DNA of 64,000 bases from Lunularia cruciata (lineage: Eukaryota; Streptophyta; Marchantiopsida; Lunulariales; Lunulariaceae). The translations under genes and the position numbers were made by a program. The DNA lies in contig OX419757.1 of assembly GCA_948567375.1 (NCBI GenBank), forward strand, positions 75,151,836 through 75,215,835, given 5' to 3'. The notes under the pieces were generated by a model. That model saw only the letters and a list, made by a program, of their open reading frames with translations. It had not been told where the DNA came from and searched no databases. Below are positions 33,951-54,499 of this stretch, piece by piece (position 1 is the stretch's first letter; the number at the start of each line of letters is the position of its first letter).

Positions 33951-35255
33951 ATGGTGTCGAGAATGAGAAAAACAGTGATCCTTGTTTCAGTGATTATACT
34001 GAGCACTGTCAGGTTCGGCGCTCAGGGAGGTATTTTGGAAGATTACAGCTCTGCATTTTGTCTAAAAGCACCAAACCTGTCCAAATGTCCATCACCCCCA
34101 ACTTTCGATCTCGTTGACATCAGCGCTTTCGCGGGCAAATGGTACGAGATTGGCAGCACCGCACAATTCAAATTTAATCACGAAGCTGGATTGGCTTGTA
34201 TGACAACAAACTACACGGTAATGACCTCTGCTAGTTTCTGGGGGCCCAAAACTACGAACTTCTCCGTCGTTGACAAGGGTCTCAAAGCGATCGGAAGCCT
34301 CGGAACGTTTGGAGTAAAGCAAATCAATACATATGCAAAAGGACTCTGCCAGAACGCTCGTGACATTTGCAACCTGCTGTCCGCCAACAGCAATATAGAC
34401 AAAGCTCTATCGTCCATGTCCACAGTTGTTGGAAAAATCTTCCTGCTGCATGGGGTGGAAGCAACGACGCTCAAACAAGCCAAAACCGCCATAGGTTCAG
34501 CCATAAAAGCCATAAACGTGGCTTTGATTTCGCTTTCGAAGAACGTTACGCAAATTCAGTACGTGACCGCGAAGCTTAGCCAAGCAGATGGTGAAAGCAA
34601 GGACAAAGCGGGTGAGCTAATCAACGTCACAATGAAGGCTGGTAACGTGGAGAAAGACATCCAAGCTGCAGTGAGTGCCATTGCCGATGCCCGTGGCCAG
34701 ATCATACGAGTCGCAGCAAAGCTCGTACTCGTTGGGGGAGTTGATTCGGCCATCAAAGCAGTTCCAGATCTTGGAAATGCGGTATTTTCACTAGCTGCTG
34801 CTGAGAACGCCATACTTGCTCTGGCAGGACAGATGCGATTAACTTCTATCGGGATTTCCGCTATGTCGGGTTTGATTTCACTGGACACTACAAAACCAGA
34901 AGGCTATGCTAGTGGTGTTCCATTCTCAGCTGTTCAGAACTCGTCTTATGCCGGTAGATTTGATGCCAGCTACTTATCAACGAAGACCCCATATTTAGTT
35001 CTGTCAGTAGACGGCTTTCCCGTTATGGGTTACAATGCCGCTCTACTTTATACCTGCAGTGACGGAGTCGCTGGTTCTCGTTACAATCAAGGTCTTTTCA
35101 TCATAGGTAGGGCTCCAACCTTAGCACAGTCAGTGATTGACCGGTTCATGAGTGTGGCTAATTACCATGGAATTAGTACTGACTGTGACGATCCTTTCCT
35201 TTACACAGTGCAAACTGCAGAAATGTGTACTAACACGTCGTACATCCTTCAGTGA
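33951..35255 (+). CDS. Secreted lipocalin-like protein with large helical insertion
   Basis: 434 residues from the ATG at 33951. An upstream in-frame ATG (33906) lies before a probable acceptor (TTGCAG at 33926-33931), so it is probably intronic. Residues 5-26 look like a cleavable signal peptide (basic MRK, then VILVSVIILS). Residues 52-110 carry the lipocalin start (FAGKWYEIGSTAQF at 60-73) and the next strands, LACMTTNYTV. Residues about 322-434 carry the closing half (TPYLVLSVDGF, YNAALLYTC, FIIGRAPTLAQSVIDRF), as in apolipoprotein D and bacterial Blc. Between them lie about 200 residues, about 115-320, rich in Ala, Lys, Ile and Val and predicted helical, which ordinary lipocalins of 160-190 residues lack. 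Several N-x-S/T sequons fit secretion. The ligand is unknown; a small hydrophobic molecule is typical of the family. No intron is evident in the coding part. Confidence 0.85.
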   Translation: MVSRMRKTVILVSVIILSTVRFGAQGGILEDYSSAFCLKAPNLSKCPSPPTFDLVDISAFAGKWYEIGSTAQFKFNHEAGLACMTTNYTVMTSASFWGPKTTNFSVVDKGLKAIGSLGTFGVKQINTYAKGLCQNARDICNLLSANSNIDKALSSMSTVVGKIFLLHGVEATTLKQAKTAIGSAIKAINVALISLSKNVTQIQYVTAKLSQADGESKDKAGELINVTMKAGNVEKDIQAAVSAIADARGQIIRVAAKLVLVGGVDSAIKAVPDLGNAVFSLAAAENAILALAGQMRLTSIGISAMSGLISLDTTKPEGYASGVPFSAVQNSSYAGRFDASYLSTKTPYLVLSVDGFPVMGYNAALLYTCSDGVAGSRYNQGLFIIGRAPTLAQSVIDRFMSVANYHGISTDCDDPFLYTVQTAEMCTNTSYILQ

Positions 35256-37439
35256 TGCCTTTAGGACTAGTCTCTAGCATAAAGTTACCCCTGCTGCTCC
35301 ACGAAGATCAGTAAACATAGAAGAATCTCAGCTTCTAGGTGCATCGCCAATATTGGCGATTGGAGTCACAGCTAAAGTTCGGGCTGACGTATGAGAAATA
35401 TCATACAACGTAAATGTGCAAATTATATGAAAGGTTTCATCTGTCCAGCAACAAAAGGATAGGCTGCAGCGATAGTGGAAAGGATTGAGTTGTAGCATGA
35501 TTGTGATTTAAAAGCTACTTGCAACAAGAGGGAAGTACATATATCAAACTTGGTCAGCAGAAATTTCCTCCGCAAGTGATCAGAACAAACCACGAAACTT
35601 GAGGCGGAATCCGGAAGTGACAATTAATGTTGACAGTTCGCTCCTCCGCCAACAGATCTCATAGTGATCATCCGTGCTGTAAGCCTCTTGATTATATAAG
35701 CTGCTGGAATTTACACACTAAGCTCATTAGTACCCTCTGTCTAAAAAGAATAATTTCTTATACAACATCATCGATACAAGCTACGGCTAATGATGCGGTG
35801 CACGAAGATTCTTGCAGGTCCGTCTCCAATTTGAAGGTTTTGCGTACAGGTGCATGCCGATTCTATGTTTACCTGTATCTGTGATCAGATCAGCAGCAAG
35901 GTGTTTAACTTGATTTGCTCACCTGATATGTGCGGTTGGTCTATTTATTGCATTGTTAAAATCATCTTCATTCTCCTAAAAATTTCCAAGAGAAGCTACT
36001 TCCAACAGTGAATGACGAGCGTTCTGGCAAGGAATTTCGTTTCGCCATGCCCAAAGGCGAATCTGTGAATGCGAATGCAAATGCGAAGCAGCAGCAGGCT
36101 CCTCATAAAGAGCAGTCGATTTTACAAAACTCACAGATAGCACTTAATCCTCCTCGGTGCGGGAATGTTCGAGAATGTGTGATTCTCGAACACCTTCTGG
36201 CATAAGTAACTTGTCGCACTTCAGACATTGTTGGTCTGGACACCATGTGAAATGAGTTACAGGTCGTGGGCCGGTTACCACATGGTGTGGACCTTCTAGA
36301 TTCTGAGGATTGCGTTACATCACAAGAGTATCAATTAGGATGGGTTTCATCTTGCTCTGAAGTGCTTGACCGATACTAGACCATGGAAGCGAAAGAAAAT
36401 CAGAGTTCGGTGAGTACTGTGACTCACAGACAACGTACTACCTCATGGATTTCAGGATGCCAAGATCAGAGAGAATACTTCCCCCCACCTCCACACTCGC
36501 AGGGGCTCGTCCAGGATGTTGTAACTTGTAAGTTTTCACCTTCCCTCATGACCCCAATGCATAGTAATGGTGAGAAGGGAACCAAATGCCATATTCCCTC
36601 ATGACCCCAATGCATAGTAATCGTGAGAAAGGAACCAAATGCCATAGAGAACGGTAATGCCATAGATTCTCCATATGGCCTCGTAGGGGAAGCCAAACAA
36701 AAGTGAGCCACATCACAAGCCATATCACAAAGCACTCAACTCATAATTGGCGAGTCACAAGTTCAACTCATGCTATTTTATAAACTTTTAGATTTTGGAT
36801 CATTATTCTCATCTGAAGTATATAAGTAACAGCAGATCTCTTTAAGATATACTCATGAAAGAAGTATATTGAGAGAGAATAAGTATGCAGTGTTCTCATG
36901 TATACTGGTTTTGTAACCTTGCCATCAAGCAAATTTTTGATTCTCTCACGTACAACCAAAAGGAAACGACTGGATAAAACACCTTGACTGACAAGTAACA
37001 TCGCATTCACGATTCACTATCAACTATCCAATCAGTATCACCAGAGTCGGGTAGTATTACTCATTAACATCTCGTTTATTCGTGCTAATAATGAAGATTG
37101 ATGAGTAAATAATCACAATTTGTTGAATCTTCCTTTTGATTGGTAGCCTTAGTACTTAAGGTCGATTCAGTACTCACGTAACTTTTCTGAGCTAGTCCGT
37201 ATGTTGTGCTATGGAGAAGCAGCAAACATTATCATTGGTTCTCCTCTCACATCGTAGACCTTCCATTCAATGTTTAATGAGCTCTTCCCTAGACCACTTT
37301 AAGTTGTGATAGAGTGGAAACTATATCGAGACAAGGTACGCATCGAAACAAGGACATATATACTGGTGAAAATGCATTTTAACACTTAAATGTTAATGAC
37401 ATTTGGACTAATTGGGACCATTATTCCAGAAGACCAGGC
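35256..37439. other. Intergenic DNA, no gene recognised
   Basis: No conserved frame was found. It contains an 18-bp perfect palindrome (35343-35360, centre CCAATATTGG) just downstream of the lipocalin stop, and a 53-bp tandem duplication at 36541-36593 and 36594-36646 beginning TTCCCTCATGACCCCAATGC. Confidence 0.55.
36541..36646. repeat. Two-copy 53-bp tandem duplication
   Basis: Adjacent units start TTCCCTCATGACCCCAATGC at 36541 and 36594 and differ at two positions. Confidence 0.92.
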
Positions 37440-38068
37440 ATGCTAGTTTGCTGACAGATAGCACCTCGTCTACAGCTCTGAAGCAAAGGGCACAATTCTC
37501 CCACAGTAGATGGTTCATTTATTGTGGATTCCTCATGTCGAGTTCTGAAAGGTTTCTGCAGAGGGCTTCTATCCTGGTTTCTGTTATGTTTGGCTTGCTA
37601 TAAGTGACTTGCCTGATCAAGAGCAAGAGCAAAACTTGACTGATGGAAACTCCTTACTGTATCATGCGGATATATATTCAGTCACTTCTAAGGTTGAGTA
37701 TTAAAGTGACTACATATCTTGAGTGGTCAATACTCATGAAGTCACGCAGGTCTATATTCAGGAGTTTAGACGGATGACAGAGGGACTATCCCTGTGTTTG
37801 TATATATATACATATGTGCAATGGAAATAAAGGTTCGAAGGCTGGTGTGAGCCTGTTTCAGCCGTGGAGGTAGCTTCCGAGACAGGGAGTGAACCACGTT
37901 ATTTCTTGTTAGTCCTCTGAAGATGTTTAATGGGCCTTATGATGTGCTATTGCGAGAGGTCCTTGGGACTGTATTTTCTAACAGGTTTCAGCTCACGTCC
38001 CGTTTCATACATGTGCATCGTTTGATTCTGAGAGAGGGACCCTTTGGCCAAATTGTCCACATCTCACC

Positions 38069-38521
38069 ATGACTGTTCTTCAACCTGTGAAGATTATCGA
38101 GGTGCTGTATGCGAAGTACAAGGGGCTGGAGCGTAAGGAGCTGCTGCAGTTGACAGCCGATGAGATGAGAGCTGCGGGAGAGCCCTACACAGGTGTGTAT
38201 CTTTACATGCTCCATGGAGGGGAACTCGTTTTGGAGGCATTTTCCGGACGGGAGACAGAGCATGACAGAATCAAGGTAGGTCACGGTGTTTGTGGAACTG
38301 CAGTGAAGGAAGGATGTGATCAAAATGTGCCGGACGTGAGGACGAGGGATAATTACATCGCGTGCAATCGTTTCACGAGGAGTGAACTTGTGGTATTAGT
38401 TCGGAAAGACGATAAGATTTTGGGTCAGATTGACATAGATAGCGATGTTCTAGACCCTTTCTCCGAAGACGAACAAGTCGCAGTGAGATTGGTTGCTTCT
38501 GCTTTAGGCCACATGCTGTGA
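38069..38521 (+). CDS. GAF-domain protein, free methionine-(R)-sulfoxide reductase-like
   Basis: 150 residues in one exon; start chosen at CACCATGAC, the first ATG. Nearly the whole protein is one GAF domain (about 15-150). The motif GHGVCGTAV (71-79), IACN with Cys99, SELVV (Glu106) and GQIDIDS (119-125) match free methionine-(R)-sulfoxide reductases (bacterial YebR/MsrC, yeast fRMsr), which reduce free Met-R-O with thioredoxin. Cys75 and Cys99 occupy the positions of the second resolving and the catalytic cysteine. The usual first cysteine (in GKxAC) is replaced by GRETEHD, and Cys83 is extra. The protein may thus be a reductase with altered resolving chemistry or a ligand-binding GAF protein of bacterial type. 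There is no targeting signal, so it is probably cytosolic. It converges on the Egt1-like gene about 770 bp away, and both were copied together to 2.8-4.6 kb. Confidence 0.85.
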   Translation: MTVLQPVKIIEVLYAKYKGLERKELLQLTADEMRAAGEPYTGVYLYMLHGGELVLEAFSGRETEHDRIKVGHGVCGTAVKEGCDQNVPDVRTRDNYIACNRFTRSELVVLVRKDDKILGQIDIDSDVLDPFSEDEQVAVRLVASALGHML

Positions 38522-39292
38522 ATATGTCGCACTGGATTCTGCTGTGCAACATTTAATTTCAATGAGGAACGGATTACTGGAAGCCTTCGGAGTTCTGAAG
38601 ATTATGAGGTGCGTCTTTCCCATCGTTCAAGGCTGTCAAGTTATGAACGTCAGACCTGCTGGTGGCTATAGGCAGAATTTTGTGTCTCGAGTTAATTTTG
38701 TAGGCTAGTGGATTAAAGCTTTCGTCATATGAAATTCATGCAGAAATTTGTTTACCTTCTCTGAAGGTTGTGTCTGTTATGGTTAAATTTCAGATAATGG
38801 TCTAGCTGGCAACCGTAGCTGAGCCCATCATCAATGAGGCCAAATTTCTTCGTTTGGAAGAACTGACGAACGCAGTGCAAACAAGTATATCAGATGTTAG
38901 GGTTTTGGCTTGATTAACATTTTTTACAGATCAAAATGTGTAACTCTAGAAAATGCTGCACAACTCTCATGACTTGGAGAAAAATTAGGTCCGCCACATC
39001 CTCAACTGTAGGTCCACTTACGGATGGAGAAGAGTCACACCAAAGATAATAATGAAAAAGTATGGAAGTCACTGGTACTAACAATGTTATACCAGCATTA
39101 AATCCGTCTTGGTCATTACAATTTGAATTCATACCCAATCATAATCTGTGCTGCTTGAGCAGCTTGAGCAAAATTACTCTGCACAACCTGACTATACACT
39201 AACTGCCCCGAAAATATATTGGTCGACCTAAACCAAATCTCACCCTTCATCTGCACATCATCTTTAGAGAGCTAACATTCCTTTCTTAAAAC
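38522..39292. other. Spacer between the convergent GAF and Egt1-like genes
   Basis: It presumably holds the two 3' UTRs. No separate gene was seen. It is alignable with 3239-3966 in inverted orientation. Confidence 0.6.
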
Positions 39293-42200
39293 CTACCTGC
39301 AACATCTGAACTTGGCGAAGACAAATCGATACTGTTTCTGATAGAAGTTTCTGAAAGAATCTCTTCTCAATGAGGGATGAGTGACAGGAGACGATCCTTT
39401 CAGCACGAAATGACTGTCATCGAAAAAATCTTGGGAGTACTCGGGATAGTCTGCCATGGGCTTGAAACCCGGGAAGCCCTGAAAGGGTGTGCTAGTCCAC
39501 TCATAACCACCAGTCCTCATTTGCTGGACCAATTCCTCAGCTGGGTCCACGTCCAAGACCCGCTGGTATTCTGCTTCAGAAAATATTCTGCAGCCCAACC
39601 ACTTGCAGAAAGCTTGAGCTTCTGATAAACTGACAAATACGGGTTGGTGTGCAACCTTTGACCAATGATTAGTGGCCTGAAATCCATGAACAAAATACTC
39701 GCCCTCCACGAGCGACCATGTTGCCGGATACTTGAAACCGTTTCCCTTGAAATGAGCATAATCGTCCGAGTCCCATAAACTTTCTTGCTCATAACCACCT
39801 TCCTTCACAAATCTGTGAAACTCTGCAATGGAAACAGGCCTGCTGCTGACCCAGAAGGTCGTGGATGTACCCGTCTGGAGTTGGGGGTACTCATTATCCC
39901 AAAGGAAGCCAGTTTTACCCAAATCTGCTCCAAGAACGACTTTACCTGGTTCGATGGTAATCATTTTGGACTTCGCCAGAGAATTAATGATGGACATGGT
40001 GGAAGGAGGTTCAGCGGAGTTCATATGACTTTGTGGTAGTTGTGCAGCGGTCACAGTTGCCATGGTCTTCTCGAATGCTACTTTCCTTTCCTGCGTAATC
40101 ATGTACGCTAGTGTCTCTTGATGCATGCGGTCATGCTCAACCACAAAAGTGATGAGATTGGATTTGGTTCGGTACTTTCCTTCCTGAATTACTTTCAGTA
40201 CCTTCTCTCTGATTGAGTTGACGTAGGCAACAATCTTCTCTCTTTCGGGCCACTGAGCTGGAGGTTTTGGGTGACTGTGGCATCGGGAAGGATCAAGTAG
40301 TACCGGATCGATGCCTCTTGAGAACATGGTGTCCATGTCTGTAGCAGGTTCGTCGGGAAATAATTTCAGCTTTGTGAAGGATGTCAGATGACCACTGCAC
40401 ACAACGAAAGACCAAAGAATCATATTAGTAGTCAATAGGCCCTGGTGAGCATTTCAAATTGTACAAGATGTATTTTGGAAGTTTATTCGGTGTCTCATTC
40501 TTGTCTGGTCCTCGCTTCATGAAGGGAATACGAACAGCGTGATATCTACTTTGCCTACCATCGATAGAATGAATAACATTTTGCATCTACAGATTGATAT
40601 AAATGCATTTTAAATAGAAAACTCTCAAGGAACGGTTGAAACTAGTTTTACTTAATGTATAATCCGCAGAAAAGTTTGAACACAGGTAGCTTATTATCAC
40701 CTACATATCAGCAGGTTTCACTTGCTATTACGTTCTTTGCATCGACGGAGTTAGACTTGATGTTACCAAAATCCTCTTGGATACGTCAGATACTTACTAG
40801 TAAAAGCAAAAAGGATGACGAACATCGATGGGCTTCCGACTCCAATCGGGGATTCCCTCAAACAGTTTATCGGTATCCTGCCAGCACTGAGTAAGAGCTT
40901 CATAATCATCCAGGAGAATTTGACTCCCGTAAGTCTGATTGTGCCATGCTGACAGAAGATGAAAACCTGCTTTCTCAGTCATTTGATGTATTATATCCAA
41001 AGTAAACTTCCTTGAGATCTCCATCAGCACTCTTTCTCCAGGCCTGCAACACTCCCAATAGATACATGAGGAGGGTACCTCCAGATAAAAGATGACGTCC
41101 GCTAGTAGCCTTTGTTCTTTGCTTCACCTACAACCTCCCAGTTCCTTTTAAGTACTTGGTATATTTGGGCAGTTCTACGAGTCTAGGACAAACTCTAGAC
41201 GGCCCTCGAGGGTTCATACCCAAACCCCATTGCTTCACTAGAACCCCCCCGGAGCCCTCACTAAGCAACCATTGGAGCTAGATCTGCATGCTATTGCGAT
41301 TCTCATTAAAGGTTGGCAAATTTCAGAAGACAGATATTGTTGTTCTATGGAATATCGATAACCTATCAGGTGAATTTTCTAGGATCTTTCGCGATAACCC
41401 ACCTAACTTCGACTTGATGCTGTGGGAGCGTAAGACCTTCGGGGAATTTCAGGTACATCTCCACCTGTTTAAGTTCAGAGTTTATGTCAACTTCATATTC
41501 CCAAGAATGCTCCTCAGCTGTAGAGCCTTCATGTCCCAGAGTACGAAGTGCATTCCTCATTCCATTTTTTATGAATGCCTCCGTAACTCCATGCTTGTCA
41601 TAATAAGCATCACGTAATATACCCTCTCTTTTCCACATATCTGAGTCAACAAAAGCACAGCTCGAATAAGACCCCCAAGTCATGAGTTCTGTAGATTTCT
41701 GTGGTTTGACTGTAAAGCTCGGTCAACCGAAGGAAGCATAAGTTCAATACCACTTTATCAGTCATAATGCGATCTTTCATGCATCTCAATCTTACCAGTG
41801 CATAGAAACAGGCGACATCTCGTTTTCACTGCATTCAAAGCTTTAGCGAAAAACTCTGTTGCAACATCGTGAGACAGATTGCCCACCCCGCTTCCAAGCC
41901 AGATCACACACAGTGATTCCTCCGGGTACTTCTCTCTGACTTTCCTGAGACCCTCTATATAATCTGCCGCCACTAGATCCACAGTGAGATGACCCTGAAC
42001 CAAGAGCATCAAATTACAGCGCGCCTCGTCCAGAAACGACTCAGACACGTCGATTCCTGCAAACCGGCATCTGCAAACTCAACCATTACACCGTCAATCT
42101 CTCTCCTCCATCCCATTCTTAACACACGAGGTATCCTACTAGTTCTAAACACCATCAGTTTTTGAGGATGCCAAAACTCCGCGCGTACCTTCCATGGCGA

Positions 42201-42724
42201 GCAACGAGAGCGTTGAGAATGTGAGCAGTCTTGCGCGCAGAACCACAACCAAGCTCTACAACAATACTGCCATCGGGAATGTGGGCCACTATCTCCTCCA
42301 CATGCTCCTTCAGCATGTTATCCTCTGCTTTGAAAGGGTAGTACTCTTCGAGTTTCGTGATCTCTTCGTACAGGTTCGAACCCTTGTCATCATACAGAAA
42401 CCGGAACGGAACCTCCTTATCGGACTGTTTCCGCAAGCCGTTTAAAATGATCTCTCTCAGCTCCTCTGTTTCTGGCGAAGAAGTAGTAGTCACTTCCTGC
42501 TCCAACTTTTTCGTTGGCGGGTTGCTGACCACCACGGTCGGGGGATTGTTCACATGCTTGGATTTCAAATCAGACTTGAGCTCTGCTAAAGTATCCAGTA
42601 ATTGTTCTTTTTGGGGAGGGTAGACGTACGGCGTGGGAGCCTTCAATCCCCAGATTGCTGGCATCCTTACGGCTGCTTTACTCCAGGAACTGCAGTCACG
42701 ACAAGACAGATTTTCGCGCTCCAT
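39293..42724 (-). CDS. EGT1-like: Egt1-type fusion: EgtD-like methyltransferase plus EgtB-like sulfoxide synthase
   Basis: Five exons with GT-AG introns join in frame to 798 residues: 42724-42189, 42070-41796, 41640-41403, 41043-40798, 40394-39293. Residues about 95-410 are an EgtD-type SAM-dependent histidine methyltransferase (FLYDDKGSNLYEEIT, EYYPFKAED, SAM loop VVELGCGSARKT near 155-166, LGSGVGNL, DAYYDKHGVTEAF). Residues about 415-560 are a DinB-like domain with all three Fe(II) ligands expected from EgtB: His434 (YGHL) and the HX3HXE motif His519/His523 in HDRMHQE. Residues about 575-798 are the formylglycine-enzyme-like domain (VLGADLG, WDNEYP, GGYE, AFCKWLGCRIFSEAEYQR, YRFVFAKFR). Order and length match fungal Egt1, which makes hercynine from histidine and joins it to cysteine with O2; OvoA has the methyltransferase last. 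The start could be 42802 or 42664 instead. No transit peptide is evident. The substrate is inferred. Confidence 0.93.
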
Positions 42725-44404
42725 CAGCAACCTGAAGAAACAATGTCTGATCTGACCATTACGCAATGGTTGATGACAGTAGGAAGGTTCTCTTAAGAAC
42801 AAAACAGTCCAACGCAGGAAGCTGGTAAAGCCTTCAGTACTGGCAACAAGCTACAAAGTTCCTGGGTGTGAAGCAAATCTGGGGCTAGACTGAACCAGTT
42901 GCAACTGCAGCAAGTTGAGGGCAGTTTTGATGTGGTAGACCAACAGATGATAAATTATTCCTTCCGTATCCATCCACTCATACAAGTGGCTGAACCCCTC
43001 GAATGGCTCCGTGCCATAAATAACAACTTAGCCACTGCTAACTTCAGCGTTTTTAGGACAAGGAGCTTTGACAGACGAGGATGGGGTGTGATGAATGCCG
43101 AAGGACAATAAGACTTAAATTTATGGGAGATGGATGCACACGAATGAAGTCATGCGTCTGCAAGATGAACGCAGATGAACCGAGAGAGGATTTAGCACAC
43201 AGTTACAACATTCAACATTAAGTTGATAGAATTCCAGCGGGTGCATTGGAAATTGAACTCGACGACAAAGATTTCCAGATGCACCCGCGGGGATAATGCT
43301 TCTAGCTGGTCCCACTTATTGAGTGCTACTGGAACGTTGGGAATGATCCAACCGTAACAGTGTGTTCCAAGTCCGTTACACTTCAAGTCGAGACATCAAA
43401 TCTTACTTTCTCCTCAGCGATGCACATTTTAATCCAAAAGTCAATCAACGCGGGTGTAAACTCCAACAACAACGAATACTAGATCGATTTCATTCAAATT
43501 GACCACCTCAAGTTGGTTCCGGGTCCCTGTTTAGAAGTAGGACCGACGTTACGAAAGACATCAACAAACCACGGGGTACGTCTCCTATTTCAGATGCTCA
43601 CGAGGAGAACATCCCTGCGGCCACCATGGATAAGCGACTGATCTCCCTAAATACAGACATCAGGGCCAAATGGCGTGAATCTACTGTAAGTGTGTAAGAG
43701 TCTTTACATTGGCGAATATTCTAGCATCATCGAATGTCCTTCCATGCCATCTACTGCTGATACAGAGAGCCGTCAGGGAGTACAGGTGGAACGGGAGGAG
43801 GTAGCTATTGAAAGACTTCGGATTGTAATCGAGCAAAGACATTTCTCATTGGACTGCATCTGAACCAGAGATAAAAGTAGTTTCCGAGATTCTAGAACTG
43901 GTAATAGTACAGATAGAGAGAGTATTCGAAATTTTAAACCAAGCAGTCAGGCAGCTGCTAGAGAGAAAAGCTTACTGAGTATGAATTCAAACTCCAGTTG
44001 CTCTTGATCTCACACTGTGCACTGTGCACTCTCAAATCTCTTTGCTTAAGCCCACGCGAGGGAGACGGAACTTAAGAAAAGTAGCAACGTGGAACCAAAA
44101 CTCTTTCAATTTACCAAGATTCGATACTTTCAGCAGATTCACAGACGAGCGCCAAATAATAGATTACGAACCGATTTGAAAGCCCATATACTGACGAGAT
44201 TACGCATTCCATGCACGAGAGGCTCCCTCTCTCCCACAGACTATCAACCGCGTCACATGTGTCCTTAGACGAGCTCGCAAGTGTCGATACCCGCATCCTC
44301 CAGTTATGCCACGTTATAAGCCATGCAGTCCATGGACTCGATGAACTACTCCTTGGCGCTATGGTCTACGTAGTCGAAGTCCTTCATGGCATACACAAGA
44401 AAGA
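42725..44404. other. 5' flank of the Egt1-like gene and intergenic DNA
   Basis: An acceptor-like ATTGTTTCTTCAG lies just upstream of the chosen start (42736-42748 on the minus strand), so a 5'-UTR intron is possible. No other supported gene is present. A possible two-exon micro-ORF at 43626-43804 (plus) is discussed in the findings. Confidence 0.45.
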
Positions 44405-44560
44405 GAGAAAAGACGACCACATAGACCACATGAAGGATGGGAAGACTGAAGCGGAAGACCGCATCAAGCCGTGTAAGGAGAGAAAAAACGAAGGTAAAAT
44501 GGGATTAGGCACCAATAGTATCGAGATGAAAAGTCTGCCCTGTCACACCTAAAATAGAAT
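44405..44560 (-). repeat. Retroposon 3' tail, copy 6
   Basis: The minus strand reads TTTTAGGTGTGACAGGGCAG, TACTATTGGTGCCTAATCCC, CATTTTACCTTCG, TTACACGGCTTGATGCGGTC, TTCCCATCCTTCATGTGG and TCTATGTGGTCGTCTTTTC. It is the longest copy of the tail apart from copies 1 and 9. Confidence 0.78.
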
Positions 44561-52595: not shown

Positions 52596-54499
52596 TTAGA
52601 AGGTCTTGAAGCACTCCTTTGCAGCAGCGATAGTGAATGCAATGTCCTCTTCAGTATGTGCCAAGCTCGTAAATCCAGCTTCGTACTGCGAAGGAGCAAG
52701 GTATACTCCCCTCTCAAGCATGCCACGATGGAACTTAGCGAACCTTGTAGTGTCACTCTTCTTTGCATCCTCAAAGTTAGCCACTGGGCCCTTCTGGAAG
52801 AAAAACCCGAACATTCCCCGGATGTTGCCTGAGCAGAATTCAATTCCAGCTTCATCAGCTGCTGCCTGCAATCCCGTCACCAACATATTGGTGATCCTCT
52901 GAAGTTGTTCGTAGGTTCCTGGTGCCTTCAGTCTCTTCAAAGTTTCAATACCTGCTGTCATGGCAAGAGGGTTTCCACTCAAGGTTCCGGCTTGATACAT
53001 GGGACCTGCTGGGGCAACCATCTCCATGATTTCCCTCCTTCCACCGTAAGCACCCACTGGAAGACCTCCACCGATGACCTTTCCCATAGTGGTGATGTCA
53101 GGGGTGATGCCGAAGTACTCTTGAGCACCACCATAAGAGATTCGGAATCCAGTCATGACCTCGTCGAACACCAACAGGGAGCCATCCTCCGTGGTTATGT
53201 CCCTCAAGGCCTGCAAAAACTCCTGCCTAGGGACAATGTACCCAGCATTTCCAACAACTGGTTCCAGAATCACAGCGGCAATCTGTCCGGGGTACTCAGC
53301 AAAGACCTGCTTCACAGCTTCAATGTCATTGTATGCGGCAGTCAAGGTGTTTGCGGTTGAGCTCTTGGGAACTCCGGGAGAGTCCGGGAGACCCAGAGTG
53401 GCAACACCACTTCCTGCTTTCACTAGGAAGGAGTCAGCGTGACCATGGTAGCATCCCTCAAACTTCAAAATCTTCTCGCGGCCGGTGTATGCTCGCACCA
53501 ACCGCAGCATGGACAGACAAGCTTCAGTTCCGGAGTTCACCATTCGGACCATTTCCACGCTGGGAACTGCTTCGATCACAAGCTCTGCCAACTGGTTTTC
53601 CAAGAAGGATGGGGCACCGAAGCTGGTTCCCTTCTTTAGAGTTTCAATGAGAGCAGCATTAATCTGTAAACAGTAAACACTCACATTGTATCAGTCCCAC
53701 TGTCTCATAAATGATCATCTTCGTCCATATATTTGTTATTATTAAACATTGAAACTGTGAACAAATTCCTTGTCCCAACAAAAAGATATCTCCAGAAGTA
53801 AGCTGAGACATACTATAATACCTGATCATCACAGTGACCAAGAATGGCAGGACCCCATGAACCGACGTAGTCGATGTACTCGTTTCCATCTACATCGTAA
53901 CAACGGGAACCCTTAACACGGTCGAAGACAATTGGGTTGCCACCAACAGATTTGAATGCTCTCACTGGAGAATTAACACCACCGGGCATCAAATCCTGCG
54001 CGAATTCCAACAAAAGACATCTAAGAATCATCTCACCCTTGAAACAAGAAGGCAAAGCAAATATCACCCCCATAACTTCAGTTATAGTTCCCCAAACTTC
54101 CCATTATGCTGTGCAGGTTACCACAATTCATGGCTTAAGTCGTCGAGAAAAATCAGAGAGGAGATTCAGGAATACGGCAACCTCAAAATATATCGCTTAC
54201 TAGTTTCCCATATACAATGTGAAATGCTTGAGATTTTGAAGCCCACAATCCTGAAGCAGAGACGGAAACTCAGGGCAGAAAACAACTAGACCAACCTTAG
54301 CAGCGGTGAAGATCTCCTCGGATCTCTGAGTAGTGTAGGCTTTCTTCTCCACAGATAGCGTCATCCTCACCACCTTCGAAGGCAGTCCCTTGATAACGCT
54401 GGAAGAGGAAGAAACAGCAACTCCCTTGCTCAACTTCTTAAGTCCTGACCATTGCTGCGAGACATTGGCAGTCAATCCTCTAGTCGCCAAAGCCTCCAT
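52596..54499 (-). CDS. GSA: Glutamate-1-semialdehyde 2,1-aminomutase, plastid precursor
   Basis: Three exons (54499-54296, 53995-53822, 53663-52596) join in phase 0 to 481 residues. Residues 1 to about 50 are Ser/Ala/Lys-rich and look like a chloroplast transit peptide. The mature protein follows the family closely: [52 protein letters not shown] [40 protein letters not shown], and [18 protein letters not shown] with the PLP lysine at about residue 321. The enzyme is a PLP (class III aminotransferase fold) mutase that converts glutamate-1-semialdehyde to 5-aminolevulinate, the committed precursor of chlorophyll and heme, in the stroma. Length and conservation indicate an intact gene. The start MEALATRGL is preferred to one 21 codons upstream because it begins a typical transit peptide. 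Confidence 0.97.

Follow-up and report, generated by a model that had tools for sequence, protein, structure and literature searches.

The window analysed here, a 64,000-nucleotide stretch of the Lunularia cruciata genome, contains an intact, intron-bearing gene for a genuine orthologue of the bifunctional enzyme EGT1; ergothioneine synthesis in plants has itself already been published, in 2026. With a probability of about 0.92, we read the gene as a liverwort EGT1 that most probably descended vertically within the green lineage and is present in one intact copy with two broken duplicates nearby. The genome adds to the evidence for retention, in a thalloid liverwort, of a single EGT1 gene that is intact and under selection, in agreement with the 2026 work on non-flowering plants.

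Rebuilt from the sequence, the gene comprises five exons (Table 1) separated by four introns, all of them GT-AG, in phases 2, 1, 2 and 2. The spliced frame of 2397 nt encodes 798 residues and a stop codon, with no internal stops. These exon numbers reproduce those of the earlier note, which had five exons splicing in frame to 798 residues; a possible correction concerns the start. The equivalent of Met21 is the start residue in four of seven liverwort orthologues (P0001-P0004; MPPVW/MPAIW), two others (P0005 and P0006) carry N-terminal extensions ahead of it, and P0007 has no equivalent. On this sequence comparison translation may begin near 42664, at Met21, which would give a product of 778 residues.

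Table 1 EGT1 and accompanying features of the Lunularia cruciata window (window coordinates)
Feature	Position	Strand	Basis
EGT1 coding span, 5 exons and 4 introns, 798 codons and stop, from 42724	39293..42724	-	Splice model, homology, domains
EGT1 exon 1, start of methyltransferase half; possible native start Met21, ~42664	42189..42724	-	Splice model, orthologue starts
EGT1 exon 2, methyltransferase half	41796..42070	-	Splice model
EGT1 exon 3, methyltransferase half	41403..41640	-	Splice model
EGT1 exon 4, methyltransferase half ends, DinB part begins	40798..41043	-	Splice model, domains
EGT1 exon 5 (stop codon included), remaining DinB part with H434, H519 and H523, and FGE-type half	39293..40394	-	Splice model, alignment
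GAF protein resembling free methionine-R-sulfoxide reductase (fRMsr), 150-aa open frame, convergent with EGT1	38069..38521	+	Pfam GAF, structure matches
Plastid-type glutamate-1-semialdehyde aminomutase (GSA) exon, context marker	52596..53690	-	92% to Riccia fluitans R1flu_010331
Partial duplicate, inverted, 88% identical to 37986-39737, with last ~149 EGT1 codons and GAF copy	2795..4500 (2795-4642 as EGT1-GAF segment)		

The window (C6:75151836-75215835) lies within a contig of 76.8 Mb; the whole genome measures 566 Mb in 74 contigs. The GSA gene stands about 10 kb from EGT1. Contamination is ruled out by the size of this contig and by the 92% identity of GSA to its Riccia fluitans counterpart; the contig and the GSA neighbour also bear out the earlier note, which placed a complete Egt1-type gene with introns in the nuclear DNA of a plant. 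In R. fluitans, the locus tags of GSA (R1flu_010331) and of one EGT1 copy (R1flu_010342) differ by 11, and the two records list a contig of equal length, which suggests that the neighbourhood of the two genes is conserved.

Pfam finds three domains in the protein: PF10017 (Methyltransf_33, the EgtD family) at residues 90-387 (237 bits against a cut-off of 23), DinB_2 at residues 399-526 (27.7 against 24.8) and FGE-sulfatase (PF03781), whose best stretch covers 574-710 (90.5 against 23.3). The Egt1 order of methyltransferase, DinB and FGE, read before from the letters alone, is thus reproduced with each domain above its cut-off; no Pfam domain was found C-terminal of FGE. Kock et al. 2026 recognise EGT1 by an IPR019257 methyltransferase followed by an IPR005532 FGE-sulfatase domain in one protein (PMC13358676). 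Checked here as PF10017 and PF03781, the two occur in this order in the window protein, both above the curated cut-off, and between them lies a DinB domain with three iron-ligand histidines. The ligands His434, His519 and His523 had been named earlier and all are there: when the window protein is aligned with 77 matches (69 from a first protein search, eight new from a second), H434 is kept in all 78 rows, and H519, H523 and E525 in 75 each, the remainder being two gaps and one substitution.

Against solved structures, the N-terminal half matches EgtD (best 4uy6, 6.1e-28), and the C-terminal half EgtB-IV, SenA, OvoA and EgtB. The EgtD-type histidine pocket is found through M332 and E358, whose partners in the EgtD structure are likewise Met and Glu; M332 occurs in 66 of the 78 rows (nine gaps, three other residues), E358 in 70 (six gaps, two other residues). 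We take them to be equivalents of M252 and E282 of M. smegmatis EgtD, the Met and Glu setting histidine specificity.

Against the NCBIfam models, the window protein scores 204 bits with EgtD (TIGR03438, cut-off 290.9), 173 with EgtB (TIGR03440, cut-off 360), 184 with an EasF-type methyltransferase model (cut-off 205.6), 153 with OvoA (TIGR04344, cut-off 400) and 190 with SenA selenoneine synthase (NF041186, cut-off 420), reaching none of the cut-offs and scoring higher with SenA than with EgtB. Ten proteins served as controls. Five green-lineage EGT1 proteins (P0001, P0015, P0025, P0048 and P0053, the last a metagenome protein placed with green algae by the tree) fall below the same cut-offs and all score SenA above EgtB; EgtB comes out above SenA in three single-domain EgtB-like proteins (P0067, P0068 and L001) and in P0065. 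The fused protein P0196 exceeds the EgtD cut-off (301 bits), its SenA and EgtB scores lying within 2 bits of each other. Judged by these scores, the lean towards SenA and the sub-cut-off values are a trait of green EGT1. The lean cannot be put down to how the models behave in general, and it is no proof of a selenium donor.

In protein searches, the closest sequences come from Marchantia paleacea (73% identity across 97% of the query), M. polymorpha (72 and 70%), Riccia (62-69%) and Calypogeia (63%), and the extent of the M. paleacea match excludes a chance resemblance. These neighbours mark the genome as that of a liverwort of the Marchantiopsida. No angiosperms appear among the named matches, many matches being without names. 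We built a 47-row tree from the window protein, 33 named or catalogued matches and 13 metagenome rows, selected from the matches. Here the window protein sits among plant EGT1 proteins: it groups with Marchantia (94/78), nested in a Marchantia and Riccia set (100/100), within successive clades for liverworts (100/100), for land plants (97/99) and for streptophytes (99/99); chlorophyte algae branch outside these. Rows are given labels such as Spirogloea, Mesotaenium and Picochlorum on our assumption, their identifiers being the source of the names. Lycophytes, ferns and gymnosperms branch in the expected order. The tree departs from expectation in joining mosses to vascular plants (92/84) and not to liverworts; several green-algal forks fall below 90, there are no hornwort rows, and rows P0065, P0196 and P0198 are distant. 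Over the range of green algae up to gymnosperms, the branching of the gene tree is largely that of the plants, which supports vertical retention and not transfer into the liverwort lineage. The horizontal transfer that the earlier note had named first as the likely origin therefore gives way to its own alternative, ancient retention.

Two EGT1 records each are found in Riccia fluitans (R1flu_001896 and R1flu_010342), Ceratodon (12G and 3G) and Cryptomeria (SUGI_0817810 and 0817940). The paired records group within their own lineages in the tree, the pattern expected if each lineage had duplicated the gene for itself; some may instead be alleles or errors in the gene models.

Kock et al. report EGT1 in Klebsormidium, in all analysed ZCC-grade streptophyte algae, in one of two named chlorophytes and in all examined bryophytes, lycophytes, monilophytes/ferns and gymnosperms, with none in angiosperms; EGT2 is given for all analysed species (PMC13358676). 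Ergothioneine was detected in sterile cultures only where EGT1 and EGT2 both occur, and high light and heat raised its level in Physcomitrium patens and in Klebsormidium nitens; in Thuja callus, which has both genes, ergothioneine was not found (PMC13358676). The view from which the earlier note set out, in which land plants lack ergothioneine synthesis of their own, was overturned by this publication of April 2026 (PMC13358676). As early as 2015, Egt1-like proteins of the same domain make-up had been noted in moss and algae, with function then unknown (PMC4659905). With the EGT1 proteins of Kock et al. 2026, and with Marchantia and Riccia, the window protein shares its domain order and one clade, at 62-73% identity to the liverwort orthologues; it differs in coming from another species and in that two broken copies stand near the intact gene.

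The sequence analysis itself establishes orthology, the exon-intron structure, the order of the domains, the ligand and pocket residues, and selection; for substrates, products and the EGT2 step, homology and the literature lead us to expect the following pathway. The EgtD-like N-terminal half would convert histidine, with three SAM, to hercynine; the DinB/FGE half, with iron held by H434, H519 and H523, would then use O2 to join cysteine and hercynine into hercynylcysteine sulfoxide, and a separate EGT2-type PLP lyase encoded elsewhere in the genome would free ergothioneine. Both the EgtB chemistry and the Egt1/Egt2 route are described in the literature (PMC10903977). The product had been suggested to be possibly another betaine-thiol; the sequence leaves room for this, but it is unlikely, because ergothioneine has been measured in other plants with EGT1.

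Among known systems, fungal Egt1 (Schizosaccharomyces, Neurospora) has the same fusion of a methyltransferase with a DinB/FGE sulfoxide synthase, the likeness being drawn from published descriptions. OvoA, the ovothiol synthase, has a related DinB/FGE sulfoxide synthase half, but its methyltransferase sits after that half, whereas the EgtD-type methyltransferase of the window protein precedes it. Each half of the window protein matches the solved structures of bacterial EgtD or EgtB. The bacterial genes differ in their arrangement: across 80 loci kept of 322, no open frame spans both halves, 53 loci have both genes separately (50 of these on one strand) and in 27 EgtB alone was seen; the plant protein, for its part, lies below the NCBIfam cut-offs for both. 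A fused bacterial donor had been considered on the strength of tblastn matches across both halves, and was rejected with no single frame covering both in the 80 loci.

We also placed each half separately, by quick searches with SH-aLRT support alone. In the EgtB-half tree (54 rows, including 26 of the 80 bacterial loci), 21 green rows come together at 99; the nearest outsiders are the fused P0198 (82) and the Holophagae locus L067 (92), both long-branched. In the EgtD-half tree (55 rows, with 16 bacterial loci and 15 single-domain proteins), 23 rows come together at 100, and the single-domain P0201 and P0203 sit inside the green clade. One clade of green proteins with the fused metagenome proteins P0196 and P0198 was not rejected (p 0.614, two very long rows removed). 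No fungal proteins were recognised among the matches of the two EGT1 protein searches, many of which are unnamed. The green clade stands apart from bacteria for both halves in trees without a recognised fungal sequence. A tentative and rather doubtful proposal is that green-plant EGT1 is a single ancient bifunctional enzyme, fused before the chlorophyte/streptophyte split, possibly independently of fungal Egt1; the SenA lean of the green synthase half would fit such a distinct history. In that case, ergothioneine synthesis would have come together on more than one occasion or been passed among early eukaryotes. P0065, a eukprot transcriptome protein, shows the reverse fusion, in which EgtD follows the sulfoxide synthase; this suggests that some eukaryote fused the two in an event of its own.

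Around the intact gene, the genome holds two degraded relatives. The partial duplicate in the window has a one-base gap at EGT1 codon 667, and its GAF copy contains stops. A larger duplicate lies outside, at C6:75140290-75147703, which in window coordinates runs from about -11545 to -4132; roughly 45-50 kb separate it from the gene, and it matches most of 36000-44500 at 80-88%; its EGT1 part is internally inverted, lacks part of exon 1 and contains stops. Genome searches were run exon by exon, with scores for the best candidates only. All five PF10017 matches fall at the intact gene or the larger duplicate, and the five exon-5 matches divide into one at the intact gene, three at the larger duplicate and one at the partial duplicate. 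One intact EGT1 copy was found in the genome; a single copy would lend itself to clean genetic tests of the role of ergothioneine in a land plant.

The duplicates can be compared with the gene using six liverwort proteins (three Marchantia, two Riccia and Calypogeia) that are unanimous at 361 positions; the window protein agrees with this consensus at 345 of them. Where, among these positions, the intact gene and the larger duplicate differ (33 differences), the liverwort state is found in the intact gene 29 times, in the duplicate twice and in neither twice. The partial duplicate, with polarised counts of 2 and 2 out of 4, is uninformative. With 29 of 33 differences showing the liverwort state in the intact gene, the comparison points to purifying selection acting on that gene while the duplicate decays.

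Three other readings were weighed against a conserved, vertically inherited EGT1. The idea that the gene itself is decaying or has lost its function, as the two duplicates have, draws on the presence of both broken EGT1 copies within about 50 kb, a sign that the locus is unstable; with the open frame and all splice sites intact, and with 29 of the 33 polarised changes sitting in the broken duplicate, we regard it as very unlikely. Recent horizontal transfer from a fungus or bacterium into this liverwort or into liverworts, followed by intron gain, would accord with bacterial EgtB relatives of up to 36% identity and with the reported absence of EGT1 from angiosperms (PMC13358676). It is extremely improbable given orthologues in chlorophytes, streptophyte algae, mosses, lycophytes, ferns and gymnosperms, a tree that largely matches the plants, a single green clade apart from the bacterial rows for both halves, and no fused gene in any of the 80 bacterial loci.

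The remaining reading concerns chemistry: the C-terminal half could use a selenium donor or another thiol, making selenoneine or another hercynine thiol the main product. The SenA score exceeds that of EgtB here and in five of five other green EGT1 proteins, and this lean is missing in all three single-domain EgtB-like proteins and in P0065 (and amounts to 2 bits in P0196). Yet the SenA score, 190 against 420, is far below its cut-off, and ergothioneine itself has been measured in plants of this group (PMC13358676); a different donor is accordingly quite unlikely, and EGT1 of the ergothioneine pathway stays the preferred reading.

The EGT1-GAF locus seems prone to rearrangement, and illustrates how EGT1 can be duplicated and broken. 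The GAF neighbour, a putative redox enzyme, was duplicated jointly with EGT1 and may deserve attention. Its frame matches PDB structures (best Ta0848, 2.7e-19; also 3mmh, named methionine-R-sulfoxide reductase, 1vhm yebR and 1f5m YKL069W), and its cysteines stand at positions 75, 83 and 99; a literature search on fRMsr in moss found nothing. Elsewhere in the window, a 431-aa open frame at 33960-35252 (+) has a weak lipocalin match near its end, below the cut-off (19.3 against 23 bits). Finally, adjoining open frames at 6213-7402 (-), one of them with a sub-cut-off RVT_1 match (21.9 against 29.6 bits), are probably a decayed retroelement.
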